Below are positions 1,905 through 63,113 of a stretch of 64,000 nucleotides of DNA, in pieces (positions within the stretch are counted from its first letter, which is position 1; every line of letters begins with the position of its first letter). The notes under the pieces were generated by a model. The model made no database searches, was not told where the DNA came from, and was given only the letters and a program-made list of their open reading frames with translations. This DNA comes from Catonia carolina (taxonomy: Eukaryota > Arthropoda > Insecta > Hemiptera > Achilidae), in the NCBI GenBank assembly GCA_035578175.1, contig JAQMRL010000010.1, forward strand, positions 35,968,784 through 36,032,783. Reading direction: 5' to 3'. Position numbers and translations under genes: made by a program.

Positions 1905-1910
1905 TTTATT
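1905..1910 (-). other. Polyadenylation signal overlapping the stop codon of gene 1
   Basis: Minus strand GATGAATAAAC: the TAA stop lies inside AATAAA. The overlap is preserved at 22806-22811, 39537-39542 and 59199-59204 in genes 2-4. More AATAAA copies follow downstream, so the true cleavage site is not fixed by this alone. Confidence 0.45.
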
Positions 1911-4900
1911 CATCGATTAAAGATGACTTCCTGTTAACAGAACATTAATCACCTCAGTAGAATTATCAGATTTACATCCAATTCTAATATTACTATAAAC
2001 CTCTTTGTATAAAATGTAAAGACACTTAACTTTTCCCTAATAATTACTCATTAATGACTAGGCCTAGTTTAAATCTGAATGATAGTTTAATTTCCAGATC
2101 CGTTACGTTCATGTTACGTGCAACAGTTATGCACATTGGCTAAAATAGACGCTGAAGGCTGGTAGAATATATAAAAATGCTTGTTGAGAAAATATGGTAC
2201 TGATTACTCTGAGCTGCCCAAAATTAACCCTGGAGTTCTTAGAAGAGATAATATTATCCCTTTTTTGTGAATAGCGTATTTGCATTGGATACACCTATTT
2301 AGGAAACATTGGTAATCGTAACACATGCTGACGACACCAAAATTCTTGAATAAGGAAAGACCTCTGATGAAACTTCCAGGTTGGCGCAGAGACTTCTTTT
2401 ACTACTAGCCTAATATAGAACTGGATTACCCGTTCGCTTGTTAAAATAAAACCCAAACAAATCATCTCAAGTTACGTTCAAATTACAACGTTGAACTTGT
2501 CCACCTGTGATGTGAATAACGTTCGAATCCCCCAGGCGAGAATGGTGCGATATCTTGGCTCGAGGTTTTGACAGGCAACTAACTTAGAAGCATCATCTGG
2601 GTGCAAAATTTTTAAACCTTATCCACAACCAAACGCAACTCTTCTGCTTAATAAACCCTCGATAAAAATGAAATTCCGTTGCAATATTTTAATATAGAAA
2701 CACCTTTTGAAAGCACTCTTGACTTATTGTGTCCAGCTTTTTGGAGTAGCGGCAGAAAGTTATTTAAGTCGATGCAGGCTTTACAATCAAAGGTTTTAAC
2801 AATTGCTTTTGACACTCTTTTATGTAACCATTAAAACTCATCTCGACGGTATAAAAAATCCGCCAGTAAAGAGCTACCTTAACGCGTACGTTAGTATGGA
2901 ACCCGTCTTCTATTGGGAATTTTGTGATCAACTAGATGACCATCCAAAGCAACTAATCTCTGACCTAGCTACAAGGAACTTCCTAACGATGCGAGGTCTA
3001 AAGTGAAAATGGAGCGGAGACATCTTGGTTTGAATAACGGACAACAACCGCTTTATAAACGGAGAATGTACCACTTGGTACCTTTACTCCTAAAAGTAAA
3101 CTACCCCACCACCCGTTAAATTTAATTTAATATACGGAAAAAAGCCAGCTTAATAAGTAACGTGAAAAAATTTATAGACAAAAAAAAACATTTTTAGGTC
3201 GACTTCGTAGGTTTACGTAAAATCAACGAAACTAGTTGGCACTGAATCTTTTGTTATGTTATCACTTTAAAAATGTAATATTTTTTTCTCGAATTAGTTA
3301 AAGAAAGTAATTTGTGATTGATTAGCTTTTTGTTACAAGTATAATTGAGGTCTGTGTAAAAATTTGTAATTTTAAACGACATAAAAATCGTGTATCTATT
3401 TCAAATACAGTCGACTAAGTCATCTGCTGTAAACCTTTTACAATGGTCGATTTGCAATTTGTAAAACGATCTGCGAATCATTTCAACGTAATCAGTGTTG
3501 GTTTGAATAAATTTCGTTTTACTTTACTTAAAGACGTATGAATTTTATGTTTATTATCAACTCTCTAGCGAATAACCGTTCAAAGTTTAAAGCGTACATA
3601 ACACGGTCTAAAAAAATTTGGTTCTGTATGTGAGACAATTTTAAACGATGTTTAATATATAAAAATATATTGTGGCAATATCTAAAAGGAGTGTTGGAAA
3701 GAGTTTATAGATGTGTGAATGTGAATAATAATAGTTAATAAGTTGGGTGATTTCCAGGAAATGTTTAGAATTATGGTGTATAAATATATAGGTATAGTAT
3801 AAGTATGGTTGGTGAAAGATGAAATGATTTTTGTAACGTATGAAAATATGCCGTGCCTGAATGGGATTCGAACCCAAGACCACATGATGAGAGGCGAGAA
3901 GACAAATGAAAGACGTTTTATATTACGTTATTCTAGAATTTCTGTTAAGTTAGGTATTCATGCTCAAGCCGGTTTCGTTTGGCAGTCAGTCTTGACGTCT
4001 CAGCAAGGAATTGTGTACTGTGTCTCAGTGTAAGTATCGGAAAAGGTTTGTAAACATCTTTTAATGGGCTATAAGTAGGTTTTAGTTAGCCTACATGAAG
4101 TGTGAAATAATCCAGAACCTAGTTAAGTTCATTATATGTCATTAATTATAATAAGTTTATCGTTTATAATAATGATAATATTGTAACTTATAAGGTGATT
4201 GAAGTTTGACTTTATTTGTTATGATAGTGTGTTACTTTAATACTTATAATGTTATTAGTTTGATAATTATTTATTTTACCCAGATCCCGAAACGGACCTT
4301 AGCAATAAGTGGTACAATTTTTTTTTTCTTCTTTTTTTGTCAAAAACTAACAACTTGACTCTTTTAATTTTTGTTACATCTACTTTACAAGTAATTTAAA
4401 CATAATATTTACCATATGAAAATAATTCCAGGATAAATTATAGGATACTGAAATTGGGCCCCAAGGTCTCTAGGTACAACAACAATTTGCGGGGACGTGA
4501 AAATTTGTGACCAGTTGTTTCTAGTATACATCTGTTGGTAGAGTGCTCCAATCTGTTTCACTTTATTACCAGTTGAAGAAGGATATAAACTTGGTATTAC
4601 ATTCTTGGCACCAATTGCAAAGATTAAATCTTTAAGTTTTAATTTGGAAGTGACGTGTAATAATGTGTTGAGGTCTCCGGTTCTTCTAAAAGAAAATTAA
4701 AATAAAATAAATATGTAGCGTAAAGTTATATTACGATTTATTACAATATAGTTTCTCGAGTTCCACGTAAGACATAAAAATGCTGCCCTCTTAGTGTAAT
4801 GAACTTATTCATTACGTCAGAGTTATTAATTGCAAAGGGTTGAATATTACTTGCCAACATTCTACCAGAATCACAAGACTGAGCGCACCTTCTTCTATCT

Positions 4901-7900
4901 GGTGTTATTTTCATCAAGAACAAGTTTAATTTTGGTCGACATAAGGTTTTTTGATTTTGTATATTTCTTTATAGTACATCTAATATTTTGGTTCTTTTCA
5001 TTTCTATAGTTAAAAATAGAAACAAATGTTTCAAATTATAACAAATTTATACACTTTTTCTGTGTTGAAGTAAATATATTACTGTCCATGTATTGAACAG
5101 ATTTGGTTGACGTCTGCTTCTATTGTCATTTTATTAATAGGTGAACGTAATAAACGTGCCTCATGACTTTCATAAAAGTCCCACAAGCAAGTAAAATTAA
5201 ACTTGTGGATGGTATCTGTACCTGTCTAATGGCAATCAATTAGCCTACTCAAAAATATGACGAAAAGACGAATTTATCCGTCCGCTTGACAGTTCAGTCA
5301 ATTTATAATTCAGATAATGCATTCTTGTGCATCAAATCCGAAACCAATAAAAAGAAAAAGTGTTTCAATTACAGGATAAAAAGAATTTTTTAGAACGTAA
5401 AATGAAGCAATGACAACTTTAAACACATGTATCAGGTTTTATTCATTACATGAATTACTCATTCAACCCTGAAACAAAACATCTGTTAGTGGGTAATTTT
5501 CAATCGTGTCACTATCCATTTATTGTATATATTTTTTTTTGTATTTCGTCTGACTGTTTTGCCATTCCTGCTAATGCAGACGGTATTTGTTTTTAGAGAT
5601 AATACTTAAAATATTTTTATTAGACTTTTTTTACTTTCTTTATCGCTGTATGAATATATTGGGAATGAAAGTACCTATTTGTTCATGTCTAATTTTTGAA
5701 ATTGTGTTTTCACCGGAATTACCGTTTTCAGGCCCCTGAACCAAAAAACACATAGTTTTAGCGAATAATCTGGGTCTCTGTGTGAGTGCGTGAACAAAAA
5801 TTCTCAACATATTCCGTTCTTGGGATATCCTACAAACTTGATAGTTAGAACATAAGTTGGGTAGTCTACTCATAAGGAACCCGACTGAGCATTTCCATCG
5901 ATATTGCTCAACGGGAAGTAGTTGGTTATTGGGGTAATCTTTATCTTTCTTGTGATTTTCTCAAAACGGCTCCTACGATTTTTTAAAAATCTTTGTACTA
6001 ACTACATATTAATTTTTACACGAAAGAGTAATTTTTTTTTTGGTTTAAAAAACGAAAGAGTAAGCGTCATCTAAAATTCTTTTAAAGGTTGTGCTCTCTC
6101 TTTCTAAAGGCTGAGTTCTCGTAGTAAAAACTGGTTAAACCAAGACTGCAGCCGCAATATGTATTTTAAGGCAAAAGTTTCTAGACTATTATACGTAATT
6201 AAAGTTGTAGGAAATAGAAAACCAACAATTTTTAATTTATAATTTTTTTATAACGTTTAGTTTAACGTCAATTATTGATTTTCTGTTTTTTGCTCATTAA
6301 ATTCGGTAGAATGTGCGACCTTTAACACTCAACTGGTATCATCATTTTTTGTGACATAACTGGTATCAGCGGTCTGACAGACCTCCAAATTTGTTTTTTT
6401 TTAAGTTCTTCATACTCATTTAATTAATTTGTTTTAATATTAAACTTATAAAACCATGTATAATCGAAGATGTAAATGTAAAATACTTAGCATAAATGCA
6501 AAATTACTATTTAAAAAAGTAAAAAACGAACACTAAGCATTTTTTTGACTTTTACTTCCATTTTGAACAGAACAATAAAATTTTTGGGCCCTAGAAACAT
6601 TCTGTGGTCTAATAATTATAAATAAATAAGTATTTAATATGATAAAGACAAATTTATTTACAAAATTATGATGTACAACTTACATTTTGGTTCCGAGTTT
6701 TGCTATTTATGTCTATTGTTGGGCAGTACACTCTGACAAACATTTATTAAAATTTATTCGTTCTTTTTACTTTTTGATTATTTACAATAAAATTTAAAGA
6801 TTTTTATGTTAATAAAAATTCACATCATTAACACGTACAACTTGTTTACGTGATGGATCTAGTTGTGTTGAAGCCGCTTCAGAAATTTTAAATGTATCAT
6901 CCATAATGAAAATTTTATAAAATTACATATGAAAATATTTTATAATAGTACTAAACAAAGAAATGATGTATGAAAAATTATTGTATATTCATTAAAACTT
7001 TAAACAATCCATGTACTACTTGGTTTTAAAGTCGTCAAAAAGTTACACAACTGGTATCATAGGTCCAGGAGACCGCCAGTAGAAAACAAAATACAAATAA
7101 CTCGCAACTTGTTAGCTCGTACCGAAAACGATCTTGATCACGCATAGTTCAAACAACAGTTGAAAGGTATACAAAATATACGTGATGTCGGGCCATTGGG
7201 AGGGAAGTGTTGGAGGGGTAAAAAATGACAGCGGTCTCACAGACCGCATGATACCAGTTGAGGGTTAAGATTGCAGCACGCCAACCACTAGACCACGGAG
7301 GCGGCCAAAAAAATGCCAGACCTGACCGGGCATTGATAGAACACCGTTTTAAAATCCAGATACTCTGGCCATCGGGCTGGCTTTAAATATTTTGTTGTAT
7401 AAGGCATTGTGAATTTATTGATTAATCGTTCGGCTCATTCAGTTGTCCTGTATTAGTGCAATAAAAATACCCAAACAATATTCAGATAGGAACTTTTTCT
7501 GACTAATGTAACGAGAAAAGTTGTTTTTTCTCAGATTACATAAAAATATACTTTTCATATTTCGTTTAATTTGTGAACTTACGATTGTTTTGCTGGTTGT
7601 TTTTCCTTCGTATTACTAACTCCTGTTAAATTCAAGTTGCTTCTGATATTTAGTGTAGTATTTACTTCCTGATCTATTTCAAAACAAGGTATCAGGTAGC
7701 CAACATGACAGTTGCGAAAATCACTTATGGCAATTACGCTGTGGAAAAACATACATTTTAGTTTCTTTTTTTCTATTTAAGTATTATGTTTACCGTCTAC
7801 GTTGTAAAGTAGTCAGCGTAATGTAATACAAATCGAAAGTTCCGCGTTAGATTGCCAGATAAGATTTGGAAATTACCTAACCCCACTGTCCCATAACCAA

Positions 7901-10703
7901 CAGAGTTAATATGTTGATGCGCAGTGAAAGCTAAAAAAATAAATAATGTAAAGTTATGTACCCACAAATAACTTGGATGCTAAGCAAACAAACAAACAAA
8001 AAACTGTCATGTCTGTGACAAAAACAACATCTATGACTCTAATGGTATTTAGATCAGATAAATAATCATGTGCTGAAGATTCAGGTATGAACTTCATTTC
8101 ATAACATTTCAAATCACTCAACGTAGTAGTGTTCAGAATGTCAAAATTATCAGAGGAAAATGGCAATATAATTTACATGTAGACCATTGCATTTACATTT
8201 AACAAATTGTCAAATGGCATTTAATGTGAAATGCATCGTGAAGTTCTTGAACAATTCTCTCAAGTAATTTTTAACCGTTCCAAATTGAGGCTTGGCGAGA
8301 TTAATCGTGGTGCATAAGTTAGGGACAGCCTATCGGAGGCATCCAGAGATTAGGTCATAAACATTTTTCTGTACAAAAAATTATATTTGCTTTAACTATG
8401 AGAATATCGGGATTTTAATTTTTAACCATCATTGTGTGGTAAGATTCCTAGCAAATAAAAAATTAGAATTTTTGTGTAGATGAGCAATTGGAAATAAGAA
8501 TTTATCGTAATTTGTTTTTCCTCAAAAAAGGAACATAAGAAAAATATGCATACAAGTATATATGTATTTTAATGGCAGTGATATTTTATATTGTGATGAA
8601 TAAAGATGCAATTATTATTAAAATTAAATATAGTACATCAATTTACTTTATCCGATTTAAAAAATATTTAGGATTAGATATTGTCGTAATTCCTGTGGAA
8701 CGTCTATCATCTCATCTTTTCTATCTTCTTTTCGAACCCTGAAGGATGTTATATAAACAGTCGGCTCCTCTCGGCTAGTTCCAGTTGAAACTCGGTTATG
8801 AATAAAGAAAGTGCAGTTAAGAATTAATGACGGTTAACCACAGGATCTTTGAGTTTTCAGTCTATCAATCAGTTAATCATTGTGGAGGTGACCATACACT
8901 GTTGTTTCAGTACTCTTAACTGATACTTAAACTATTTTTACACAGAAGTAAAAGAAAAACTTTTTCTATTCACAGAAGGCCTATCTAATGTGAAAAATAT
9001 AACAGTAGTATATTTTGGCATAAAATATTTACTATTACTAATTTTGTCCATCACTTTTCTAGAATTGTAAACTTAATGAAATCGGTACAAAGTCGACACA
9101 AACGTTGAAGACCAGTTACAAAAGATTTTTTACACTCCTATTAATTTTTACAGTTCAATTTTCGTTATTAGGAGTAGAAATATTTAGTTTTACTTACTTC
9201 TCACTAGCCACTAGAAATGCTGGATTCCATTGATTTTGGGATTCGTAGGTTATTTTGAGTAAATACTCGTGTTTTCTTTTTAAACTGTTCCTCAGTTTAA
9301 TTCGGTACCTGGATGGTTTTATTAAATTAGATGTACTCCTAATCTCTTTTATTTTTTTCTTCGTGTAACTACTTAACGAAACTATTTCTACTCCAGTTAT
9401 TTTTATAAAATTCCAATAAGCGTTAAGTAGTACTTTGCGAACGTTTTTTAAGCATATTAACTGAAAAAAAAATTAATTTTAAAATTTTTACAAACGGTAT
9501 TACAATCCAGTTGGATTATCTGCTAAACAAATTCTTTATCTGACTAAGCCTCTTACACCCCGTGTTCCAGAATGGGTTATTATGCACTGTTTTAGTTTTT
9601 CCTCTCAAAACTTGTGATACTGCAATATGTTCGTTCTGCTCTCCTGAACAGTGTTAATTTGGATTAGCTATACTTTTTTCACAAGTTTGGTTTGCGCTTA
9701 TCACTAGGCACCCAATTAACTAGCATCTTTTGAACTACTTCAAAGCAGAAACATATCTGTATTTGTACTACATCCTAAGAGGAGAGTAATGCTCGTACAG
9801 GTTCACAGGCGGTTGACTTTAGTAAAAGGTATATTGGTAGCATTAACATAATTAAAGATTCAGCATCAAATAAATGCAGGTTATGAGTTTCTCGTGTAAA
9901 ATGTTATGCTGCTAGTCAATCGATATCATGAACTTCTAAACGACATTCAATATACACAATATAGGTAACGTTTAAACATTAATAACCGACCGTATTTATT
10001 TGAGAATTCGTTGAATAGAATTCAGAAGCTACATAAATTAGTTCTTCCACGTTCTAAAAGAGCGATTGGGTGGCGGCAATTCTGATTAAAAACGTAAAAA
10101 ATATGGTCTACTCAATGAGTAAATGGAGGACGCTAACGCACTCTATTGCGGTAATACTGACTTTAGTTAATAATTATTTTTGAATAAAGAATGGGCTTTC
10201 GATTCACAGTTAAATCTGCCATTTATATTTACTCATTTGCATCGTCCTTCATTCTTTCAATTTGCAAAACAGGATGACAGATAGGAAACCACTATCTCAA
10301 TTGTTCTTAAGATCAAGAAATTATGTTGTTTAATGATAAACTACAGGTCAATGCATGTTAAAACTATGTGATACAAATTCACTTCTTAAAAGAGGTATTT
10401 ACCCACCTCAGACCACATCTATCGTTTCGACTACAGAGGTTATTTTTGACATATATTGTGTAAGTCATTGTTATAGATCAGTCACATTTAATTAAACTAT
10501 CATAACTTCTACAGCCTACTTACATGTATACTCAATGTAGCTTTGAAATGAACAATTCCTTCCTTATTATCCAAATTAGTAATATTCATATCAATATTAT
10601 AGAACGTCGGTTTTAGTTCATTAGATGTTGTTATAGTACTCCTACAGTTTATAAATGCTAGCAGATTTATTACAAAAAAAACAAAAATCGGCAATTTTTC
10701 CAT
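1906..10703 (-). CDS. Gene 1: five-exon secreted, truncated M1-aminopeptidase-like protein (298 aa)
   Basis: Joined exons: 10524-10703 (60 codons, phase 0), 9198-9460, 7583-7738, 4413-4685, 1906-1930. Every intron has GT/AG ends (GTAAGT donors; GTAAAT after exon 4) and all phases match, giving 897 nt. Residues 1-20 are a signal peptide ending FINC. Then follow LKPTFYNIDM (30-39), KVLLNA, YRIKL, HEYLLKI, LIPCFEID (163-170, family PCFDEP), LTGVSN (family ALSN), LIFAIG, SPQIVVVP, GAQFQY (275-280, in place of GAMENW) and the end ESSLIDE-like KSSLIDE. This is the order of the M1 peptidase N-terminal beta-domain. The protein stops before HEXXH, so no zinc site exists. N-glycosylation sequons (NIT, NTT, NLT, NWS) fit secretion. 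Exon 2 has no Met and is invisible to simple ORF searches. Probably a pseudoenzyme; its role is unknown. Confidence 0.85.
2090..3125 (+). mobile_element. Degraded Jockey-like non-LTR retrotransposon (unit 1, intron 4)
   Basis: Conceptual translation with many stops and frameshifts still shows reverse-transcriptase landmarks in order: ADD (2327-2335), a KSSQVTF-like stretch near 2460-2480, RYLG near 2548-2560, and LTYCVQLFG at 2719-2745. These are typical of the palm and thumb region of Jockey-clade ORF2. The small ORF at 2803-3006 lies inside it. Homologous remnants occur at the same place in all units, so it predates the duplications. Confidence 0.7.
3671..4316 (+). mobile_element. Solo LTR, family A (unit 1, intron 4)
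   Basis: Starts TGTGGCAATATC and ends AAGTGGTACA, preceded by ATAT and followed by ATTT (decayed 4-bp target duplication). Orthologous to the LTRs in units 2-4. The middle is replaced by an antisense SINE fragment (3812-3898). Confidence 0.75.
3812..3898 (-). mobile_element. SINE fragment lacking both ends, inside the unit 1 LTR
   Basis: Antisense copy of the 1004-1186 SINE from its CTCGCCTCTCATC segment to the TTCATC...TTCACC segment, including the B-box. It lacks the 5' tRNA end, the 3' tail, the poly(A) and a target duplication. It replaces, rather than interrupts, LTR sequence that is still present in units 2 and 4. Confidence 0.75.
5530..7400 (-). repeat. tRNA-headed composite repeat in intron 3 (unit 1), interrupted by a MITE
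   Basis: On the minus strand it opens with two tRNA-like promoter segments (CCCGATGGCCAGAG, then CCTCCGTGGTCTAGTGG), continues through an AT-rich body, and ends with the CGTCTGCATTAGCAG...CAGTCAGACG tail motif shared with the SINE at 1004. Copies lie at equivalent places in the other units. It is interrupted here by the TTAA-flanked insertion at 6326-7264. That both ends belong to one element is inferred. Confidence 0.5.
6326..7264. mobile_element. piggyBac-like MITE, TTAA target duplication (unit 1 only)
   Basis: Flanked by TTAA at 6322-6325 and 7265-7268. Units 2-4 show the uninterrupted site (GACCTTTAAGATTGCAG in unit 4). Terminal inverted repeats: CACTCAACTGGTATCAT at the left, and CCCTCAACTGGTATCAT as the reverse complement of the right end. 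ACTGGTATCA and the palindrome-like GGTCTGACAGACC recur just inside both ends. No transposase ORF was found. Confidence 0.85.
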
Positions 10704-10826
10704 GTAAAACTATGAAATTATAATTTTTTGTACGAATATTTCTCTTCTCTTGTAATAAGCACTCAGTTAAGTTGACTGAATCTTCTGCGCCTGTATAGTT
10801 TTGTGGTAAATAACTAAAAATTACCA

Positions 10827-12910: not shown

Positions 12911-12936
12911 AGGGTGAACAATATTTTTCTTATGCC

Positions 12937-14137: not shown

Positions 14138-14138
<1 letters not shown>

Positions 14139-14197
<59 letters not shown>
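14139..14197. repeat. (AAT)n microsatellite
   Basis: About 20 uninterrupted AAT units, followed by ATCATCATCATC. A shorter AAT run ends the neighbouring retroelement fragment near 14490. Confidence 0.95.
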
Positions 14198-18853: not shown

Positions 18854-19515
18854 TGTCGCTGACCGTGGCCGACGCCACGTGGCCAAGCCTCGCCTTGCAG
18901 GAAGTTTGGCCCTCGAAAGGGCTGTTTCTTCTTTAAACGGTGTTGCTGTTGGTGGCGATCGAACGCGTCAAGCCGGCGTGTGCAGCGCAGTGTCCGAAGG
19001 GTGACGGCTCGGCTACCGGGTTCAGGCCTAGCCTTCCCACAGCGGCAGTTTGGTCCTCACTTCAGCGAGGCAGTGGTGGCTGCTAGAGCCTTACAGTGTC
19101 GGGTTGGCGTAGGCCGTCGGCTGATGGCGCGGCCGAGGCGGTTCCCTCCGGGCTTGCGCCGGACTCACTCTTCATCATGGTGCCTGCCGGCACGCGCGGG
19201 CTTCTTCGGCTGACCGGAGCGGGAATTAGGCGTCCGCCACCGGTAGCGTCAACCGGGGATGGCTGCACCCTGTCCTGTCTCTGCTGGGCTGTTCTCCTCG
19301 GCTGGGCTGGGTTTTCTTTTCTTTTATTGTTCCTTTCTGGTCGGGAGCTGGCGAGTGAGTGACGCTCGCAGTTTAAAACACCTGTTTATATACTCTGCCG
19401 GCGAGTCCACTACAAGTTGGAGGAGAGCCACTGCTTGTTGCGTGTTGGAAGCGCTCCCTGTGGCAGGCTGCGGGACCGTCTGTAGGTGACGATATTATTG
19501 GGGCATTTGGCGACA
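18854..19515. mobile_element. GC-rich solo LTR (unit 1 only)
   Basis: Begins TGTCGCTGACCG and ends TTTGGCGACA (inverted TGTCGC/GCGACA ends), flanked by GTAA and GTAT. Unit 3 has the empty site at about 51060. Its GC content contrasts sharply with the surrounding AT-rich DNA. A TATA-like TTTATATACT lies near 19385. Four overlapping small ORFs here follow from GC content and are not genes. Confidence 0.7.
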
Positions 19516-22555: not shown

Positions 22556-22806
22556 CCTGTATTGGCTTGAAGGTTCATTTCTTAATATTCCCAAAAACAT
22601 TTAATAAATACTACACAATTTTATAATTTACATATGTTATTTATTTTATGGTATATTACAGATTTTTAATTTGTCATATTAGACAAAAACAGAATATCAG
22701 AAAATCCATACTGTTTCTGCATTAACGGGCCAGTTAATTTTCATAGTATTTCATTTTATTTATCGGATATACATGTCTGTGGTATAATGATTAATCATTT
22801 ACATGT

Positions 22807-39537: not shown

Positions 39538-42500
39538 TTATTCATCGATTAAAGATGACTCCCTGTAAACAGAACATAAAAATCACTTCAGTAGAGTTAT
39601 CAGCTTTATATCCAATTTCATTGTTACTATAATTAAACCTTTTTTGTATAAAAATGTAAGGACACATAACTTTCCCTAATATATACTCATTAATGACTAG
39701 GCCTCCTTTAGATCTGGAATGACAGTTGAAGGTGACCTCTAACAAATCATCTCAAGTTACATTCAATTTAAAACGTCGAACTTGTCCACCTGTGATGTGA
39801 ATAACGTTCATATCCCCCAGGCGAGAATGGTGCGATATCTTGGCTCGTGGCTTGACAGGTAACTAACTTGGAAGCATCATCTAGGTGCAAAATTTTTAAA
39901 CCTTAACCACCGCCAAATGCAACTGTTCTGTTTAATTAACCCTTGATAAAAATGAAATTCCGTTGCAAAATTTTATTATAGAAAACCCTTCTGAAATCAC
40001 TCTGAACGTTATGTGTCCAGCTCCTTGGAGTAGCGGCACTGAATGACTTAAAGTCGATGTGGGCCTTTCAATCAAAGCTTTTAACAATATTGCTTCTGAC
40101 ACTTTTTTATGTAAGCAATAAAACCTTTAGACGGTATAAAAATTCCGCCAGTAAAGGAGTTACCTTAACGCGTCCGTTAGTAAGGAACCCGTCCGTCATG
40201 GTGAATTTTACGATCGACTAGATGACCATCCAAAGCAACTATCGCGTGACCTAGCTACAAGGAACTTCCCAACCGTGTGAGGTCTAAAGCAAAAATGGAG
40301 CGGAGACCTCTTGGTCTGCATAACGGACAACACCCGTGTTTCTAAACGAAGAATGTACCACTAGGTACCTTTTCTCCTAAAAGTAAAATACGTCACCGCC
40401 GGTTGAAATAAATTTTATATACGGAAATAGTGCAGCTCAACGTAGTACTGTTAAAGCATTTATAAACAAAAAACAGAATTTTTCGGTCGACTTCATAAGT
40501 TTTCATAAAATCAACGAAACTACTTTTAAATCTTTTGTAATGTAATCACTTTTGAATTGTCATTAAATGACATTTCAAATAAATCGAGGAAAAATTTTTT
40601 CCTCGATTTATTTATAAAAAATAATTTGTGATTAATTTCCTTTCTATTACATTTATAATTGAGATCTGTGTAAAAATTTGTAGTTTCAAACGCCATAAAA
40701 AATGTGTGTCTATTTCAATTACACAGTCGACAAAGTCGTCTGCTGCAAACCTTTTAAAATAGTCAATTTTCAGTTTGTAAAACAATCTGCGAATCATTTT
40801 TACATAGTACTTAGTGTTGGTTTAAATGAACTTCATTTTCTTGTATAGAAGTCGTTTGAATTTTACGTTTATTATCATCTCTGTTGAGAATGATCGATTA
40901 ATATTCTAAGCGTGCATAACACCGTCTAAAAACTGTATTTTGTTCTGTAACTGAGACAATTCTGTAGAATGTTTAAATATATTGTGACAATATCTAAAAG
41001 GAGTGTTGGAAAAGTTTGTAGAAGTGTTAGTGTAAATAACAATAGTTGATAAGTTGAGTTATTTTCAAGAAATGTTTAAAAATAAAGTGTTAAATGGTTA
41101 GGTAAAGTATAGGCCTATAGTTGTGACGGCTACTGAAGAAGGGTCGGTGTATTTAGGCAATAAGCTCTTTATAAGCTCGTGTAACTTGTTTGTAACCTTT
41201 ACTTAATACACCTTTTGTTAAGTTGTACCATCCAGAAGCCGAAAGAAAGACGTTTCATTTGTTGATATTCTAGAATTTCCATTAAGTTAGGTATTTATGC
41301 CCAAACCATTTAGGTTAGGCAATCAGTCTTGATATCACAGCGAGTGAATTATGTACTGCGTCACAGTGTAAGTATCGGAAAAGATTTCTAAACATCATTT
41401 AATAGGGTGTACGTAGGATTTAATTAGGCCTACATGAAGTAAGAAGTAATTCTTTTACTAGTTAAGTTCATTAAATGTCATGAATTTATTATAAATTAGT
41501 TTATTATATAATAATGACAATATTGCAACTTATAAGCTAATTGAAGTTAGACTATTATATGTAATTATAGTGTGTTATAAAATACCTACTTGTAATTTTA
41601 ATAGTTTGTTAATTATTTATTTTATCCAGAACCCGGCGGAATGGACCTTAGCAATAAGTGCTACAATAATTTGTTTTTTCTTCCTTTGGTCAAAAACTAG
41701 CAACTTGACTTTTTAAAATTTCTATTAAAAAACTACTTTTCTAGCAATTTAAACATATTTATTTACCATATGAAAATAATTCCAGGATAAACTACCGGGT
41801 TCCGAAATTGGTCTCCAAGGTGTCTAGGTACACCAACGATTTGGGGAGACTTGAAAATTTGTGGCCATTTGTTTTCAGTATGTATCGTTTGATAGAGTGC
41901 TCTAATCTCTTCCACTTTATTACCATTTGGAGAAGGATATGAATTAAGTACTGCATTTGTGCCACCAATTGCAAAGACTAAATCTTCAAGTTTTAATACG
42001 CAAGTGACTTTTATTATTGTTTTGGAGCCTGCGGTACTAAAAAAAATTTAAACAAAATAAACACATAGCATAAAATTATATTACGATTTATGACAATATA
42101 GTTTACCGGGTTTGACGTAAGATGTCTGCTGCCCACCCAGTATAATGAATTTATTCATTACGTCAGTGTTATTTAATGACAAAGGGTTGAATATTACCTG
42201 CCAACATTCTACCAGACTCACAAGACTGGTCGCACCTCTTTATAACTGGTGGTGTTTTTGTTTTCATCAAAAACAAGTTTAATCTTGTTCGACATCAGTT
42301 TTTTCTTTTGATTTTGTATATTTCGTACATTACATCGAAATATTTTGGTTCGTTTCATTTATAGCAATCGTTTCATACACAAGATACTTTATACTATTTT
42401 TGCGTTGTTGTCGTAAATGTTTTTTGCTCTCCATGTATTTATTAAACAGGTTTGTTTGACGTCTTCTTCTATTGCCATTATTATCAACAGGTGAACGTTA

Positions 42501-45500
42501 TAAGGTGCTACAAGATTTATAAAAGTTCCACTATATAAAATTTAACTTGTGGAAGGAATTCGTTCCTGACAAATTGCAAATAATTAATCCAAAAAATGAC
42601 AAAAGGACCAATTCACCCGTACATTCGACAGTTCAGTTGATTTATAATGCAGAAACTGCATTCATTGTGCATAAAACCAAAACCAATAAAAATAAAAAGT
42701 GTTTAGATCATAGGACAAGAAGAATTTTCTAGAACATAGAATGAAACAATGACAACGTTAAACACATATCAGGTTCTATTCATTACACGAATTACCTAAA
42801 ACAAAACATCAGATAGTGAATAATTTTCAATCAGGTCAATATTTATTTCTTTTATATATATTTTTTGTATTTCGTCTGACTGTTTTGCAATTTCTGCTAA
42901 TGCAGACGGTATTTCTTTTACAGAGGTTGTTAAAAATTTTTATTCGATTTCTTTTACTTTCTCTATCCTCGTATAAATTATATTGGGAAAGAAAGTAGGC
43001 CTACCTATTGGTTCATGCCTATTTTTCGAACTTCAGTTTTACTGGAATTACCGTTTTCAGGCCCCTGAACCCAAAAACACATGTTTTAGCGATTAATCTG
43101 GTTCTCTGTATGAGTGCTGAACAAAGAATCTCAAGATATTCCGTTCTTGAGATATCCTACAAACTTGAAAGTTAGAACTTATGGCAGGTACTACTAACGA
43201 CCCGACAGAGACATTTTCATTGAAATCGGTTCATCGGAGGTAGTAGGTTGTTGGGGGTATTTTTTAACTTTCTTGTGATTTTCTCAAAACGACTCCTACG
43301 ACTTTTTTTAAAAAAAATCGCTGTATTTACTACATTTTTATTCTTTACAAAATAGAGTATGCGTCATGTAAAATTCTTGCGAATGTTAAAGGTCTCTCTG
43401 TATAAAGGCTGAACTCTCGTAGTAAAAACTGTTTTGATAAGGACTGCAGCCGTACTACGTATGTTAAGGCAAAAGTGTATAGACTACTAAATATATAATT
43501 AAAGTTGTAGGAAATAGAAAAACCTACTATTTTTAATGTATGCTTTCTTACATTGCTTAGTTCAGCGTCAATTAGTGATTTTCTGCTTTTTGCTCATCAA
43601 AATCGGTAAAATTTTGGACCTTCAAGATTGCTGTACTTTAACCACTAGGCCACGGAGGCGGCTGAAAAATGCCAGACCTGACCGGGCATTGACATAACAC
43701 CGTTATAAGCTAAAATTCAGATGCGCTAACCATTACACCATCGGGCTGATCTCAAATATTTTGTTCTATAAAACATTGTGAATTTTATTGAATAATTATT
43801 CACTCTACTCAGTTTTCCTGTATTGGTGCATTAATAATACAATATTTAAATGGGAACTTTTTCTGACTAACGTAACCAGAAAGTGGTATTTTCACAAAAT
43901 ACATAAAAACATATTGTGCATTTTTCATTTAATTTTTGAACTTACAATGGTATAAGTGGTTTTAAATATCTCTTGTTACTAACTCCTGTTAAATCCATCT
44001 TGCTTCTGATTTTTAGTACAATATTTACTTCCTGATCTATTTCAAAACAAGGTATCAGAAAGCCAACATTATAGTTGCGAAAATCACTTATGGCAATCGA
44101 TCTGTGGAAATAACACACAATTTAGTTTCTGCTTTATGTAAGTATTATGTTCACCGTCTACATGAAGTAGTCACCGTACTGTAATACAAAGCGAAAGTTG
44201 CGGGTTTGATTACCGGCTAGGATTTGGAAATTACTAAAACCCACTGTCCCAAAACCCACAGTAGTAATTAATATTTAACATGTTGATGCGAAGTGAAAGC
44301 TAAAAAAATAAATAATATAAAGTTATGTAGAAAGAAATAACTTAGCTACTTAAATAAAACAACAAACAACAAAAACTATCATGTCTGTTACAAAAACAGC
44401 TATGACTAATGGTTTAGAGATCAGATAAATAATCATGTGCAGAAGATTCAGATATGAACTTCATTTCACAACATTTCAAATCACTCAACGTAGTAGTGTT
44501 CAGAATGTCAAAATTATCAAAGGAAAATGTTAATATATTTATATGTAGGCCTACATGCCGTGATTAAAAATTATTATTATCATTAAGTCTGTTCCAACCA
44601 GTTATTGGCTATCGTTGCAACCAATTACTGACGTTTTGACATCAGTTTTCGAGCAGCATTAATCCCGATTAACTTCACATCTATTTCCCTTTTCATCTTC
44701 GTTTGCACGATTAGTTTGGTAATTATATATTAGACAAATTGTCAAATGGCATTTAATGTGCAATGCATCATGTAGTTCTTGATTAATTCTTTCAAGTAAC
44801 TTTTAAGCGTTCCAAAATGAGGCATGGCGTTATTAAGCGTAGTGCTTAAGTGAGGGACAGCCAATCGGAGGCATCCAGCGGTTCGTCATAAATATTTTTC
44901 TGTTAAAAAATTTATATTTGCCTTTAACTATGAGACTATCTGGATTTTTAATCTATATCCATTATTGTGTGGTAAGATTCTTAGCAAATAAAAAATTAGA
45001 ATTTTCGTGTAGATGAGCAATTGGAAGTAAGAATTATCGTAACTTGTTTTTCCTCAAAACAGGAACATAAGAAAAACACAGAAATCTATGCGTACAAGTA
45101 TATATTTATTTTAATGGCAGTGGTATTTTATATTGTGAAGAATAAAGATGCAATTATTAAAATTAAATATAGTACGTTAATTTGTTTTATCCGATTAAAA
45201 AAATGTTTAGGACAAGATATTGTGGAAATTCCTGTGGAATGTCTATTATCTCGTCTTTTCTATTTCCACACACACGCGTGCGCGCGCGCACACGCACACA
45301 CACACACGCCACAAACTCAAAACATGCTTCTATCAAATGAAACGCTTACTCGATAAACGTTCTAAATTAAACATGTCACACAAATTAACAGTCTACAAGA
45401 CAGTCTTACGAAGAATCTGGATATATGGAGTTCAACTTTAAGGATCTGCTAAACCTTCACACACGAAACGTATACAAGCAATTCGAAACAAGATTCTACG

Positions 45501-48348
45501 GACGATAACTCAATGCCTCTTTTATATCACAAACACTATGTTGCACAAAGACTTACAAATCCCATACGTAATTTATGTCACGAAACAGCTATATGAGACG
45601 ATGCATGATAAATTTTAATTACATGGCAACCCCCTCATACAAAAAATGTACTTTAGAACAATACCGGGTACTCAGCACAGACGTTTGAAACGCCTCTGGA
45701 CAAGGGATCTTCTTGGCCAAATGTAGGAATGTGGTGATGACTGTACACTCCTTCAAGTAAATCAAGTTTTGGAACATTAGCTTCACATATGAAATTGTTC
45801 TATTAATATAATGACAGATACTAAATTTCAATTGAAAGTGTAAAAAAAAAGTTATAGTAACTTACGTTAATTTATTTTATGCAATTAAAAAATGTTTAGG
45901 ATAAGACATTGTGGAAGTTCCTATGGTGCGTCTATTTCGTCTTTTCTGTTTCCTTTTCGAACCCTGAAGGAAGTTATAAAAACAGTCGGCTCCTTTCAGC
46001 CAGTTCCATTTGAAACTCGGTTATAATAAAGTAAGTGCAGTTAAGAATTTATGACAGTTAACGTTTATATATTGTAACAAGTATGTTAGGAAGACAGATC
46101 TACGTGTAAATATTTATACAATTGGATTCAGGTACGAGTGAATTATTAAGGGTAATAACTATTATTATTTTTGTTTAAGTTTTGTGTTAACTTTAAATAT
46201 GTAATTTTTTTGTAATTAAATATTCCAAGTACATAATTTAATTATAAATCATAACTAATTTTATCACAGTAATTCATGTTTTTTAATAATACTATTATTT
46301 TTGCTTTCCAATTTCCAAAACAAGCAATCTATACAACTGAACCGATGAGTGTCTGTTAAAAATTTAGTAAATTTGTAAATTTTTAAAAAATTTGTACAAA
46401 CTGATTGGTTTATTAGCATGTATACTGTATACTTAGAAACATTATCAGTGGGTTTTGACAAGTTAATATTTCACGACTTTACTGGAGTACTGAAGACAGG
46501 ATTGTCCAGTTTCTAGTCTATCAAACAGTCAATCATTGTGGAGATGACCATTCACTGTTGTTTAAGTACTCTTAAAAGATACTTGTATATTTTTACACAG
46601 TTGTGAAAGGAAAATAATTTTCTGTTCACAGTAGGCCTATCTAATTAGAAAAATATAAAAGTAGCATATTTTGGCATAAAATAATATCACTTATCTAGAA
46701 CATCACTTATCTAGAATAGTAACACTTAATGAAAACTGTACAAAGTACACAAACGTCGTAGATCAAGTTACAAAAGATTCGTTACCCTCCTTTTTATTTT
46801 CACAGTTTAATTTTTGCTATTATGAATAGGAATATTTAGTTTTACTTACTTCTCACTAGCCAAGCAAAATGCTGGATTATATGCATCTTTGGATTTGTAG
46901 GTTATTTTAAGTGCATACTCGTGTTTACTTGTTAAACGATTCATCAGTTTGATTCGGTACGAGGATGGGTTTATCAAAAAATGTTTACTCTCAATCTGTT
47001 CTATGTTGTTTGATATGGAACTACTTAACGAAACTATTTCTACTTTAGTTATTTTTATATAATACCAATTAGCGTTAAGTATTATTGTGTCAACGCTTTT
47101 TAAACACTCGAACTGTAACAAAAGTTTAATTTAAAAATTTTATAAACGGTATTACAATCCAATGGGATTATTTGCTAAACAAATACTTTATCTGACTAAG
47201 ACTCTTACAGCCCGTATACCAGAATCGGTTATTATGCACTGGTTTAGTTTTTCCTATCAAAACTTGTGATAATGCAAGATGTTCGTTCTGCTCTCTTGAA
47301 CAATAATACATCAAGTGTTAATTTGGATTAAACTTGTTTTTCACAAGTTTGGTTTGTGCTTATCACCAGGCACCCAATCAACTAGCATCTTTTTGAAGTA
47401 CATCAAATCAGAGACATATCCGTAATTCGTACATCCTAAGATGAGAGTAATGCTCATAGCCTTAGGACGAGAGTACCGATTCACAGGCGGTTGGATTTAG
47501 TGAAAGGTATATTGGTAGCAGCGTATGAATTTCTCATGTAAAACGTTATGCTCCCAGTCAATTGATATTATGAACTTCTAATCGACATTCAATATACACA
47601 ATATAGGTAACGTTTTAACATTAGTAAACGACCGAATTTATTTGAAAATTCGTGGAATACAATTCAGTACCTACTGGATTCAGTACTTGCAAGTTCTAAA
47701 AAAGTGCGATGGGGTGGCGGCAATTCCGGTTAAGAAGTAAAAATATATGGTCTATTCATGGAGTAAATGGAGGACGCTCACGCACTCTAGTGCGGTTATA
47801 CTGTCTTTTGTAAATGATTGTTTTTGAAGAAATATGGGCGCTCGATTCACAGTCAAGTCTGCCAATTTTCTTCACTCATTTTTATCGACCTTCATTCTTC
47901 CAATTGCAAAACAGAATGACTTAAAACAAGGAAACACTATCCTAATTGTTTTTCAAATCAAGTAATTTTTTGGCTAATGATAAACTACACGTAAATAGAA
48001 GTTAAAACTAGTGATACAAAACCACGTTTAGAAAGAGGTATTTACCCAGCTCAGACCACATCTATCGTTTCGAGAACAGAGGTTATTTTTTACTTTTATT
48101 GCGTAAATCAATGTTATAGATCAGTCCTGACATCAAATGTATTTAAACTGTCATGTATTCTAAAGCCTACTTACATGTATAATCAATGTAGCTTTGAAAT
48201 CAGCGATTCGGGTCTGAGTATCCAACTTAACAAATTTCATATCAATATTATAGAGCTTCGGTATTAGTGTATCAGATGTTGTTATACCACAGTTTATAAA
48301 TGCTAATAGATTTATTACCCAAAAAACAAAAATCGGTAATTTTTCCAT
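39538..48348 (-). CDS. Gene 3: five-exon secreted, truncated M1-aminopeptidase-like protein (295 aa)
   Basis: Joined exons: 48175-48348 (58 codons), 46850-47112, 43946-44101, 41767-42036, 39538-39562; 888 nt with consistent phases. I start at the ATG at 48348 (MEKLPIF) because it begins the signal peptide shared with the paralogues; an upstream in-frame ATG at 48426 would bury it. Landmarks: LIPKLYNIDM, TIILNA, YRIKL, HEYALKI, FLIPCFEID, LTGVSN, LVFAIG, SPQIVGVP, GDQFRN instead of GAMEN, IFIWESSLIDE and stop. Exon 4 is one codon shorter than in genes 1 and 2. Exon lengths change only by multiples of three between copies. Intron 2 is lengthened by a Jockey fragment and another insertion. As in the sister genes there is no HEXXH zinc motif. 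Confidence 0.85.
39740..40430 (+). mobile_element. Degraded Jockey-like remnant (unit 3)
   Basis: Orthologous to 2455-3125 of unit 1. The front part, including the ADD region, is deleted at about 39730. The small ORF at 39542-39745 crosses the deletion border and is not a gene. Confidence 0.6.
40551..40613. repeat. Two adjacent palindromes (unit 3 only)
   Basis: 40577-40594 and 40596-40613 are perfect 18-nt inverted arms (AAATAAATCGAGGAAAAA) around one T. Directly in front lies TTGTCATTaAATGACA with imperfect extensions. The same place in units 1 and 2 has only the sequence around ttttttctcg. It could be a relic of a small inverted-repeat element. Confidence 0.8.
40983..41665 (+). mobile_element. 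Solo LTR, family A (unit 3, intron 4)
   Basis: Starts TGTGACAATATC and ends AAGTGCTACA, with ATAT before and ATAA after. Orthologous to the LTRs at 3671, 24529 and 60015. Confidence 0.75.
42860..43755 (-). repeat. tRNA-headed composite repeat in intron 3 (unit 3)
   Basis: Best-preserved head: minus strand CCCGATGGTGTAATGGTTAG (a clear A-box) and CTCCGTGGCCTAGTGGTT, near 43610-43755. The tail motif is near 42890-42910. Confidence 0.5.
45174..45953 (+). mobile_element. Jockey-type fragment within a long direct repeat (unit 3)
   Basis: 45300-45730 translates with a few breaks to LDKRSKLNMSHKLTVYKTVL, then IWIYGVQL, HTKRIQAIRNKILRTITQ, and later TQHRRLKRLWTRDL: a Jockey-clade reverse-transcriptase C-terminus. 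Preceded by a CA/CG microsatellite (45267-45309). The block is flanked by a direct repeat of about 90 bp (45174-45268 and 45864-45953, beginning acgttaattt), which appears once in units 1 and 2. Confidence 0.7.
45267..45309. repeat. (CA)n/(CG)n alternating purine-pyrimidine microsatellite
   Basis: Runs of CACACA and CGCGCG in strict alternation, at the 5' edge of the Jockey fragment. Confidence 0.9.
46066..46490. other. Unit 3-specific insertion in intron 2
   Basis: Units 1 and 2 continue from gacagttaac directly into the aggatctt...cagtctat block; unit 3 has about 420 bp of AT-rich DNA in between. No inverted ends, target duplication or coding motif can be seen. Confidence 0.5.
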
Positions 48349-58592: not shown

Positions 58593-59199
58593 TTAAAACA
58601 AGAAATTTGAGTATGCACTTGGATATGAATTTACATTGGTACAGAAGAACAAGTGCAATGTTGTGAGTTCGACTTCTTACGCAATCCTGCAGTTTACGTT
58701 ACTGTAATTTAAACTTTTAAATCTAATGTATTGCAATTAACTTATACGGTGTTATGCTTGTTTCTTTATTGCTTTTAAATGAATAAAAATGACAGTCGAA
58801 ATTGTTTGCTACCTAGTATACTTTCTGTTTTGTTTTAGAGATGAATACGTACTTTGGAGTGTCTACAAACATTTTAAACAACCATAGGACACAATTTTGG
58901 GATTCCAGATATGTAACTTAATTTTACTTTGTAATACATTGTATTAGCTTCAAGGGTAATTTCTTAATACATAAAAAAATATTTTATGATTAATAAACAT
59001 ATATAATTATCATATTTTATTTACTTTATAGTACATTACAGAACGTTAATTTGGCATAGTGGTTGTAAACAGAATATCAGAAGATCCATACTCTTGCATA
59101 CTACATAATCATCGGCCAGTTAATTTTCATAGTATTTCATTTTATTATTTATTTATCGGAGATAAATTTATTTGCTCTAATGATTAATCATTTACATGT

Positions 59200-62100
59200 T
59201 TATTCATCGATTAAAGATGACTCCCTGTAAACAGAACATAAATCACCTCAGTAGAATTATCAGATTTACATCCAATTCTAATATTACTATAAACCTCTTT
59301 GTATAAAATGTAAAAACACTTAACTTTTCCCTAATAATTACTCATTAATGACTAGATTTAGTTTAAATCTGAAATGATAGTTTAATTTCCAGATCGTTAC
59401 GTTTATGTTACGTGCAACAGTTATGTACATTGGCTAAAACAGACGCTGAAGGCTGGTAGAATTCATAAAAATGCTTGTTGAGAAAATACGGTACTGATTA
59501 CTCTGAGCTGCCCAAAATTAACCCCGGAGTACTTAGAAGCGATACTATTATCCCTATTTTGTGAATAACGTATTTGCATCAGATACACCTATTTAGGAAA
59601 CATCGTTAATCGTAACACATGCTGACGACACCGAAATTATTGAATGGGAAAAGACCTCGGTGGAAACTTCCAGGTTGGCGCAGCGTTATCTTTTACTACA
59701 AGCCTAATATAGAACTGAATTACCCGTTGGCATATTAACGTGAACCCAAACAAATCGTCTCAAGTTACGTTCAAATTAAAACGTCGAACTTGTTCGCCGT
59801 GACTTGAAGAACGTTCGTATCCCCCAGGCGAGAGTGGTACGATATCTTGGCTCGAGGCTTGACAGGCAACTAACTTGGAAGCATCATCTAGATGCAAAAC
59901 ATTTCTCTTGTGAATGATCCTTCAAAGTTTTAAGCGTACATAACACCGTATAAAAACTATTTTGTTCTGTACCTGAGACAATTTTAAACGATGTTTAATA
60001 TAAAAAATATATATTGTGGCAATATCTAAAAAGAGTGTTGGAAAGAGTTTATAGATGTGTGAATGTGAATAATAACAGTTTATAACTTGGGTTATCTCCA
60101 AGAAATGATTAGGAATAGTGTATAAATATTTATGAATAGTATAGGCCTATTGTTGTGGTGGCTACCTGAGAAGGGTTGGTGTATCCATTTAGATAATTAG
60201 CTCTTTCATGTTAGTGTTAATAATGTATGTAACCTTTATTCAATTTACCTATTTTTTAGTTGAGCCATCCAGAAGCAAAATGAAAGACGTTTTATATTAC
60301 GTTATTTTAGAATTTCTGTTAAGTTAGGTATTTATGCTCAAGCCGGTTTCGTTCGGCAGTCAGTTTTGACGTCGCAGGGAGTGAATTGTTTTCTGCGTCA
60401 CAGTGTAAGTATCGGAGAAGTTTTTTAGGCATTTTTAATGGGCTGTAAGTAGGTTTTAGTTACATGAAGTGAGAAATAATCCGTTTACTAGTTAATTTCA
60501 TTATATATCATTAATTTACCATAATCAGCATATCATATATAATAATGATAATATTTGTAACTTATAAGCTGATTATAGTTAGACTATTATTTGTTATTAT
60601 AGTGTGTTACATAATACTTGTAATTTTAATAGTTTGTTAATTATTTATTTTATCCAGATCCCGAACGGACCTTAGGAATAAGTGCTACAATATTTTTATT
60701 TCTTTTTTGTTTGTCAAAAACTAATAATTTGACTCTTTAAAATTTCTATTAAATCACTACTAATAATTTAAACATATATTTACCATATGAAAATAATTCC
60801 AGGATAAATTACAGGGTTCTTAAATTCGGAATCGAGGTCTTCAGGTACTTCAACAATTTGCGGAGACGCGAAAATTTGTGGCCACTTGTTTTCAGTATGT
60901 ATCGTTTGGTAGACTGTTCTAATCTCTTCCACTTTATTGCCAGTTGGAGAAGGAAATGAACTTTGTATTACATTCTCGGCACCAATTGCAAAGACTAAAT
61001 CTTTAAGTTTTAATACGCAATTGACATATAGTACTAATGAATTGGGGGCTGCGGTACTTCTAAAAGAAAATTGATATTAAATAATATACTTAAAAGGTAA
61101 TATTGTATTAAGGTTTATTGCAATATAATTTTTCGTGTTCGACGTAACATGTATGCTGCCCACCGAGTATAACGAATTTATTCATTACGTCAGTGTTATT
61201 TAATGACAAAGGGTTGAATATTACCTGCCAACATTCTACCAGACTCACAAGACTGGTCGCACCTCTTTATTTCTGGAGTTGCTTTTGTTTTCATCAGGAA
61301 AAAGTTTAATCTTTCTCGACATCAGATATTTTTGTGGTTTTGTATATTTCGTATAGTACATCAAAATATATTGGTTCTCTTCATTTTTATCGTTAAAAAT
61401 AGAACCCAATGTTCATCTAGAACAAATTTTTGTACTATTTCTGTGTTGTCGTAAATATATTACTGTCCATGTATTGAACAGATTTGTTTGACGTCTGCTT
61501 TTATTGTCATAATATCAATAGGTGAACGTAATAAACGTGCTACATGACTTTTATAAAAGTCCCACAAACAAGTAAAATTTAACTTGTGGAAGGAATTTGT
61601 ACCTGACAAATGGAAAATAATTACTCCAAAAATGACAAAAAGACTAATTTATCCGTCCGCTCTACAATTCAGTCATTTTATAATGCAGATAATGCATTCT
61701 TGTGTATAAAACCGAAACCAATAAAAAGAAAAACTGTTTAGATCACAGGATAAAATGAACTTTCTAGAACATAGAATGAAGCAATGGCAACTTTAAACAC
61801 ATATCAAGTTCTGTTCATTACATGAATTATTCATTCAACCTAAAACAAAACATCTTGATAGTGGATAATTTTCAATCGTGTCACTATCCATTTACTGTAC
61901 ATATTTTTTTGTTTTTCGTCTGACTGTTTTGCCGTTCCTGCCAATATAGACGGTATTTCTTTTAGAGATAATGTTTAAAATATTTTTATTAGATTGTTTT
62001 ACCTTCTCTATCCCTGTATGAATATATTGGGAATGAAAGTACCTATTTGTTCATGTCTAATTTTCGAAATTGTGTTTTTACCGGAATTACCGTTTTCAGG

Positions 62101-63113
62101 CCCCTGAACCAAAAAACACATAGTTTTAGCGAATAACCTGAGTCTCTGTGTGAGTGCGTGATCAAAAATTATCAAGATACTCCGTTCTAGAGATATCCTA
62201 CAAACTAGATAGTTAGAACATATGTTAGAGACCCGACAGAACATTTTCATCGATATCGCTCAACCGGAATTAGTAGGTTGTTGGGGGTAATGTTTATCTT
62301 TCTCGTGATTTTCTCAAAACGGCTCCTACGACTTTTTTTAAAAATCGCTGTATTTACTACATTTTAATTTTTAAATGAAAAAGTAAGCGTACTCTAAAAT
62401 TCTTATACAGGTTGTGCTCTCTCAATCTAAAGGCTGAGTTCTCGTAGTAAAAACTGGTTATACCAAGACTGCAGCCGCAATATGTATTTTAAGGCTATTT
62501 CGAGACTTTTATACATAATTAAAGTTGTAGAAAATGGAAAACCGACAATTTTTAATATATGACTTTTTCATAACGCTTAGTTTAGCGTCAACTAGTGTTT
62601 TATGTTTTTGCTCATCAAAATCGGTAAAATGTGGGACCTTTAAGATTGCAGCTCCCTAACCACTAGGCCACGGAAGCGGCCAAAAAAATGCCAGACTGAC
62701 AGGGCATTGACAGAACACCGCTTTAAAATCCAGATACGCTGACCACCATCGGCCTGGCATCAAATATTTTGTTGTATATAAAGCATTGTGAATTTATTGA
62801 TTTATTATTTACCCCATTTAGTTGTCCTGTATTAGTGCATTAATACGCAAACAATATTCACATAGGAAATATTTCTGACTAACGTAATGAGCAAATTGTT
62901 TTTTCTCAGAATACGTAAAAATATATTTTTTATCTTTCGTTTAATTTGTAAACTTACGATTGTTTTGGTGGTTGTTGTTCCTTCGTGTTACTAACTCCTG
63001 TTAAATTCAAGTTGCTTCTGATGTTTAGTTCAATATTTACTTCCTGGTCTATTTCAAAACTAGGTATCAGGAAGGACACAGGAACTTGGCGAAAATCACT
63101 TATGGCCATCTCT
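59200..63113 (-). CDS. Gene 4 (partial, exons 3-5): truncated M1-aminopeptidase-like protein
   Basis: Exons 62958-63113, 60784-61059 and 59200-59224 are present; exons 1 and 2 should lie beyond the right end of the window, since in gene 1 exon 2 starts about 1.46 kb upstream of exon 3. Exon 3 reads EMAISDFRQVPVSF then LIPSFEID and LTGVSN, so it resembles gene 2 (Ser instead of the family Cys). Exon 4 reads LVFAIG, YQTIHTENKWPQIF (as in gene 3), SPQIVEVP, then DSEFKN in place of GAMEN. It is one codon longer than in genes 1 and 2. Exon 5 again gives ESSLIDE and stop. Splice sites and phases are intact. Catalytic inactivity is inferred from the lost GAMEN motif and the stop before HEXXH. Confidence 0.8.
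59400..59905 (+). mobile_element. Degraded Jockey-like remnant (unit 4)
   Basis: Orthologous to 2110-2620 of unit 1, including the ADD-encoding stretch (acatgctgacgacacc near 59620). The rest is deleted at about 59905. Confidence 0.6.
60015..60689 (+). mobile_element. Solo LTR, family A (unit 4, intron 4)
   Basis: Starts TGTGGCAATATC, ends AAGTGCTACA, with ATAT on both sides (60011-60014 and 60690-60693). It is the best-preserved intron 4 copy and carries no secondary insertion. Confidence 0.8.
61905..62765 (-). repeat. tRNA-headed composite repeat in intron 3 (unit 4)
   Basis: Orthologous to the copies in units 1-3. Head near 62640-62765, tail motif near 61925-61955. The minus ORF at 62008-62250 lies in its body and is frameshifted in units 2 and 3, so it is not a gene. 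Confidence 0.5.

Follow-up and report, generated by a model that had tools for sequence, protein, structure and literature searches.

Can the N-terminal domain of an M1 aminopeptidase be maintained as a protein in its own right after the catalytic domain has been lost? This question is raised by a stretch of 64,000 nucleotides (here called the window) from the hemipteran Catonia carolina. In a search of the whole 1.47-Gb, 142-contig assembly (GCA_035578175.1), the window was located at C2:35968784-36032783 (contig JAQMRL010000010.1). A preliminary description of the window had reported a tandem array of truncated genes resembling M1 aminopeptidases; this overall observation was confirmed, with four amendments. 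Our reading is that these are arrayed, intact genes encoding a Peptidase_M1_N domain and a tail of about 100 residues without a zinc site, and that their products, predicted to be secreted, likely act as non-catalytic binders in an arms race against a host or some other adversary. We give this reading a probability of about one in two.

Alignment of the exon regions and splice-site modelling revealed four genes, c1 to c4, each with five coding exons on the minus strand. In a self-comparison the units repeat in tandem, 15 to 22 kb apart from exon 4 to exon 4, and identity among their aligned pieces is mostly 74 to 91%. Three genes are complete in the window: c1 (10703-1906, 298 residues), c2 (31654-22807, 293 residues), and c3 (48348-39538, 295 residues). 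The window holds exons 3 to 5 of c4 (63113-59200); exons 1 (C2:36035050-36034871) and 2 (C2:36033750-36033488), also on the minus strand, were found in open frame in the fetched flank directly past the right edge and complete a protein of 299 residues. These lengths agree with the roughly 295 residues announced earlier. In c1, exon 1 (10524..10703) carries the start codon, the predicted signal peptide, and the first M1_N strands (the Pfam match begins at residue 32) and is followed by a GTAAGT donor. Exons 2 (9198..9460) and 3 (7583..7738, with PCFE and LTGVSN) continue the M1_N domain, and exon 4 (4413..4685) would encode the end of domain I and the presumed start of domain II. The coding part of exon 5 with the stop codon (1906..1930, placed by exon alignment and the splice model) is followed 47 nt past the stop by AATAAA (1854..1859). 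The corresponding exons, 1 to 5, are modelled at 31478..31654, 30121..30383, 28361..28504, 26338..26610, and 22807..22831 in c2 and at 48175..48348, 46850..47112, 43946..44101, 41767..42036, and 39538..39562 in c3. Exons 3 to 5 of c4 lie at 62958..63113, 60784..61059, and 59200..59224. In each case, the last interval is the coding part of exon 5 with the stop codon. Flank comparison placed AATAAA at 22755..22760 in c2, 39486..39491 in c3, and 59148..59153 in c4, an offset behind the stop equal to that in c1. The modelled introns of the window copies all begin with GT, end with AG, and correspond in phase; the donor reads GTAAGT, GTAAAT, or GTAATT.

The partial fifth gene of the preliminary description did not hold up. 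It consists of exon 1 only (c0, 794..973, minus strand), a divergent paralogue with an open frame and a GTAAGT donor. This exon looks like a remnant and not a fifth gene, because in the 75 kb of array to its left, tblastn (E up to 1) found no match to exons 2 to 4 in the same orientation. A short element with a tRNA-like head (1037-1125) precedes the start codon of c0 by about 64 bp; a second copy, 97% identical, is located inside intron 4 of c1 (3811-3898). The element is probably a short interspersed nuclear element.

Searches of Pfam with the proteins returned Peptidase_M1_N (PF17900) as the only significant family, and it was found in all five full proteins tested, namely, c1 to c4 and gL, a relative outside the window. 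The curated cut-off of 25.8 bits is exceeded by c1 (27.6 bits, E 3.7e-6) and c4 (26.5 bits, E 8e-6); c3 (23.9 bits, E 4.9e-5), c2 (19.7 bits, E 9.7e-4), and gL (24.1 bits, E 4.3e-5) fall below it. The match covers exons 1 to 3 in c1 to c4, in agreement with the earlier claim that the M1 fold is represented by its N-terminal part alone. When exon 3 was compared with the corresponding segment of aminopeptidase N (APN), 1 to 16 of 2,000 shuffled sequences scored as well in global alignment and 2 to 97 of 2,000 in local alignment, depending on the copy (3 and 2 of 2,000, respectively, for c1). In three relatives to the right of the window (g7 to g9), exon 3 matched APN at 48 to 54% over about 30 residues (tblastn, E 0.02 to 0.07); distal copies read PCFDE where c1 reads PCFE. 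An unrelated methyltransferase match in NCBIfam (E 0.005, one of the four copies) was dismissed as chance.

The tail encoded by exons 4 and 5 most likely descends from the APN strand that follows the GAMEN motif, because two comparisons point there. In an hhalign comparison with 13 exon 4 sequences, the LAFAVG stretch fell on LAYIVS of APN (P 0.008 for this one comparison, covering the end of domain I only). When the tail of the divergent paralogue g5, obtained via a candidate terminal exon, was aligned in a register set by eye, 6 of 14 residues were identical to those of the strand behind GAMEN, and none of 20,000 shuffled sequences scored as well. For the tails of c2 and c1, 76 and 160 of 20,000 shuffles, respectively, were as good, and for the window copies this descent is inferred mainly through g5. 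The replacement of GAMEN stated in the preliminary description is thus not demonstrated by the window copies alone; the equivalent position is supported by the g5 tail.

The zinc-binding motif HEXXH, said earlier never to be reached, is indeed absent from all minus-strand stop-to-stop open reading frames (ORFs) of at least 18 codons in the window. The search was extended to 258 kb of array sequence (the window and 200 kb around it). No GAMEN-like string occurs there, and none of the seven HEXXH strings in ORFs of at least 20 codons lies in sequence that resembles M1 by eye. The catalytic domain Peptidase_M1 (PF01433) was not matched by any product. When the 258 kb were searched by tblastn with four M1 proteins, no catalytic match appeared, and the only hits with E below 0.5 fell in exon 3 of g7 to g9. 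A genome scan with PF01433, in which the best 70 candidates were scored, placed none of the 50 matches listed on C2 or on C13, a contig with a related block. The exon-wise sister scan with PF17900 also lacked the C2 and C13 genes among its 43 matches listed, and the tblastn result therefore weighs more than the PF01433 scan. These data make it extremely improbable that the genes encode complete M1 enzymes with overlooked catalytic exons. A point for that explanation is that the narrow pattern which located a terminal exon in g5 located none in four other relatives, g6 to g9. It is opposed by the absence of catalytic matches and by the gene ends themselves: the stop codon occupies the same place in c1 to c4 and gL, AATAAA is conserved in the four window copies, and if intron 4 is retained, the donor itself supplies an in-frame TAA in all four.

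The preliminary description had also stated that frames and splice sites are intact, with introns rich in indels. This was borne out. Indels in coding exons keep the frame; the 3 of 13 exon gaps that are not divisible by three represent a single 3-base shift of the exon 4 acceptor in c3, cut by the exon boundary, and the frame of that exon is kept. In the flanks within 350 bases, 299 of 379 gaps are not divisible by three (pairwise counts, which are not independent). Gap openings amount to 2 to 6 per kb in exons versus 17 to 22 per kb outside. Under neutrality, with changes accumulating as fast as in the introns, a full copy would remain free of new stops with a probability of 0.06 to 0.07 and free of frameshifts with a probability of about 0.001. 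Intact frames by chance are excluded, because these two probabilities multiply.

Selection was analyzed with our own implementation of codon models on three-taxon trees, not with PAML; the four possible triples of c1 to c4 share sequences and are not independent. By the NG86 method, nonsynonymous divergence (dN) exceeded synonymous divergence (dS) in all 10 pairs of c1 to c4 and gL, with a dN/dS ratio (omega) of 1.22 to 1.57. The one-ratio omega was 1.45 to 1.57 over the four triples, with twice the log-likelihood difference (2dL) against omega 1 at 3.85 to 5.22 (threshold 3.84, one degree of freedom). The dN/dS check suggested earlier thus gave values superficially near 1. The positive-selection model M2a was favored over the nearly neutral model M1a in all four overlapping triples (2dL 32.7, 27.1, 46.8, and 25.4; threshold 5.99), and 2dL for c1-c2-c3 was still 25.6 without the indel zones. 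In simulations under M1a fitted to c1-c2-c3, none of 80 replicates reached 32.7, the maximum being 6.1. The site models describe the omega near 1 as a mixture of slow and fast sites and not as neutrality. Of the 39 sites with a posterior probability above 0.8, exon 2 holds 19, the last 42 residues hold none (exons assigned by hand count), and five fall in the indel zone at 192-205. The last 40 codons are constrained (omega 0.34, 2dL 4.25), and the mature region bears the signature of diversifying selection.

Exons were also compared with non-coding sequence. K80 distances were 0.161 to 0.217 in exons and 0.127 to 0.168 in alignable non-coding sequence, the exon value being higher in six of six pairs, once barely (0.161 versus 0.158); the comparison omits non-coding sequence that cannot be aligned. 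For exon 2, the p-distance among three copies was 0.215 versus 0.107 to 0.111 in the adjoining intron. Exon 2 drives the excess and is the one exon in which it is clear; exons 3 and 4 diverge about as much as the sequence next to them, and exon 1 shows no acceleration. Could the copies still be pseudogenes, neutral relics whose frames are open by chance? The one-ratio omega, the orphan exon c0, and stops in one distal allele and in a candidate exon of g5 are what such relics might show. The constrained tail and the strong preference for M2a speak otherwise, as does the fact that, contrary to neutral expectation, each of the four window copies retains its frames, splice sites, stop codon, and poly(A) signal. 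The pseudogene reading was rejected on the frame-survival odds, and we regard it as very improbable. The multicopy family of catalytically dead, predicted-secreted M1-like proteins proposed earlier is in this respect supported, in that its members are kept intact by selection; as a whole, that proposal is partly supported.

The family extends beyond the window. With an exon 4 query (30 candidates scored), at least 22 matches were found in the genome: 12 at C2 35.90 to 36.13 Mb, 8 on C13, and 2 scattered far from the array (C2:29466149-29466301 and C58:89532760-89532963). To the left of c1 to c4, gL is a complete plus-strand relative with five exons and 307 residues. To the right, five minus-strand relatives (g5 to g9) all have open frames in exons 2 to 4, and g6 to g9 also have an open exon 1 match; none of the 19 exon matches examined in g5 to g9 contains a stop, a set that does not include the candidate exon 1 of g5. 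The candidate terminal exon of g5, found with the narrow pattern, is comparable to that of c1 to c4. Two further exon 4 matches, gA and gM, lie on the plus strand. In total, about 235 kb holds about 10 related loci with exons 2 to 4 and three fragments (c0, gA, and gM).

The loci of the C13 block have the same order and orientation as those on C2, and eight equivalent exon 4 loci differ by 0.1 to 1.7% between the two (about 2 to 3.3 kb aligned each). On C2, where c1 to c4 lie, 89 kb separate exon 4 of c1 from that of g5; by exon 4 matches, the interval on C13 is 28 kb and has one c1-like copy. The simplest reading is that the blocks are probably two haplotypes, with four copies versus one; less simply, one block could be a recently duplicated segment or an error of assembly. 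Between the blocks, c1 exon 4 differs at 7 of 273 bases versus 24 of 3,006 in its flanks (Fisher p 0.012, uncorrected, for one of eight loci).

Signal peptides were predicted from the hydropathy of residues 4 to 18. The mean value is 2.5 to 2.8 in c1, c3, c4, and gL, 2.0 in c0, and a lower 1.67 in c2, and c1 to c3 contain no second stretch with a mean above 2.0. The c1 to c4 proteins are accordingly described as predicted-secreted. Secreted, probably salivary binders are favored because the pattern resembles two known systems. The pea aphid salivary Aminopeptidase-N family comprises lineage-expanded M1-type genes with 27 predicted effectors, one clade having reported episodic positive selection (PMC6818229, citing Boulain et al. 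2018), and one member shows very low read coverage in one biotype (PMC6818229, PMC7495047, and PMC13256243). The window family shares lineage expansion and positive selection with it. The six M1 entries in the saliva table of PMC7495047 are enzyme-sized, however (70 to 106 kDa, annotated as M1 metalloproteases), whereas the window proteins have about 295 residues and the catalytic domain has been discarded. The second system, the SSSGP salivary families of the Hessian fly, forms a tandem cluster with a conserved signal peptide, a mature region more variable than non-coding sequence, and dN/dS above 1 (PMC2955719). Tandem clustering and dN/dS above 1 recur in the window family, which, unlike these different, small proteins, is derived from an enzyme and clearly exceeds its adjoining introns in exon 2 only. 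Binding without cleavage has also been proposed for M1 pseudopeptidases of the Tma108 type (PMC11266112); Tma108, a yeast M1 protein bound to nascent chains at the ribosome, retains all but one active-site residue and is neither secreted nor truncated nor part of an array. No truncated or inactive M1 salivary family was recognized in the literature search. The domain-I-only form appears to be a new variant, the aphid family being the published parallel for a positively selected, M1-derived secreted family.

By analogy with aphids, delivery in saliva is most likely. A duplicated aminopeptidase would have lost everything past the strand after GAMEN, and the remaining domain would have become a soluble scaffold. 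Exposed positions would then change under selection, whereas the tail at the C terminus would stay fixed, as might the signal peptide, and binding would occur through variable surface positions on the conserved domain-I scaffold. In a more specific form, which we put forward tentatively, the N-terminal aminopeptidase domain would serve as a stand-alone secreted, variable binding scaffold, encoded by about 10 loci whose number differs between haplotypes; its tail would be constant and other positions hypervariable, and its products would be non-enzymatic effectors or decoys. The diversifying selection fits the effector or binder role suggested in the preliminary description. A family that goes on diversifying after the loss of its catalytic domain would show that selection acts on the N-terminal domain by itself, and would make it possible to test whether salivary aminopeptidases bind rather than cut. 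The fast sites and the likely four-versus-one difference between haplotypes would be direct handles for genetics.

Two other roles are live rivals. The proteins could be soluble decoy receptors, fragments of the shed gut aminopeptidase type that intercept pore-forming toxins or viruses using membrane APN. Insect APN is reported to be a binding partner of Bacillus thuringiensis Cry toxins; the predicted signal peptide, the lack of a second hydrophobic stretch in c1 to c3, and the fast evolution fit as well. Similarity to canonical APN is very low, and mimicry of its toxin-binding surface is doubtful for that reason, so that we consider decoys unlikely, though the foremost of the rivals.

Reproductive proteins, too, are typically of secreted type, tandemly duplicated, and positively selected. 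The features of the array would also suit proteins of seminal fluid, or proteins that interact with the egg, that diversify through sexual conflict. The closest M1 expansion under positive selection found in the literature is salivary, and this role is judged a little less likely than that of decoys.

Lower still stands the possibility that the domain is an endogenous regulator, pairing or competing with active M1 enzymes of the insect itself. A review of pseudopeptidases reports that inactive homologues sometimes regulate active cousins, and canonical M1 exons are present elsewhere in the genome. A conserved internal partner would favor purifying, not diversifying, selection. The canonical exons (at least 43 PF17900 and 50 PF01433 matches) lie on C91, C1, C69, C55, and C35; many cluster on C91 at 66 to 70 Mb, some with stops, and, as judged from these matches, they make up a separate APN expansion.

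Several observations weigh against the reading as secreted, selected binders derived from M1. Exons 4 and 5 of the window copies gave no convincing score against M1 by a bacterial M1 profile, anchored global alignment, a pig APN segment, or Pfam; the best anchored global alignment, for c2, was equalled by 15 of 1,000 shuffles and was one of 24 tried. AlphaFold modelled exon 4 alone with a pLDDT of only 43.8. Among 5.8 billion proteins from public genomes and metagenomes, neither the four-copy alignment nor the 298-residue region in a three-copy concatenate found a homologue; viral contigs contained no relative, and sequence searches of the PDB gave no match. The hydrophobic start of c2 is weaker (mean 1.67), the exon 1 matches of g6 to g8 show no obvious signal peptide by eye, and the signal-peptide omega of 0.22 over 19 codons is not significant (2dL 2.97). 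Exon 4 differences between the C2 and C13 blocks number 17 nonsynonymous (one of them a stop) and 3 synonymous over the eight loci, which is not above the neutral 77% (p 0.28). Exon 4 of g7, open in the C2 copy, is interrupted by an in-frame stop in its C13 counterpart, and the candidate exon 1 of g5 (36082216-36082392, E 0.003) has a stop near its start; given these stops, not every array member is intact. Finally, selection of this kind could equally be seen in proteins of seminal fluid or of the immune system.

Three further features were noted in the window. An open frame on the plus strand (37450-37800) has no Pfam or database match; we take it to resemble the C-terminal part of a Jockey-type long interspersed nuclear element, which the database look-up did not confirm. 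A GC-rich island (18863-19400; 41% GC in its 2-kb bin versus 28 to 34% in the others) is possibly part of a mobile element. A perfect AAT microsatellite of 20 copies occupies positions 14138-14197.

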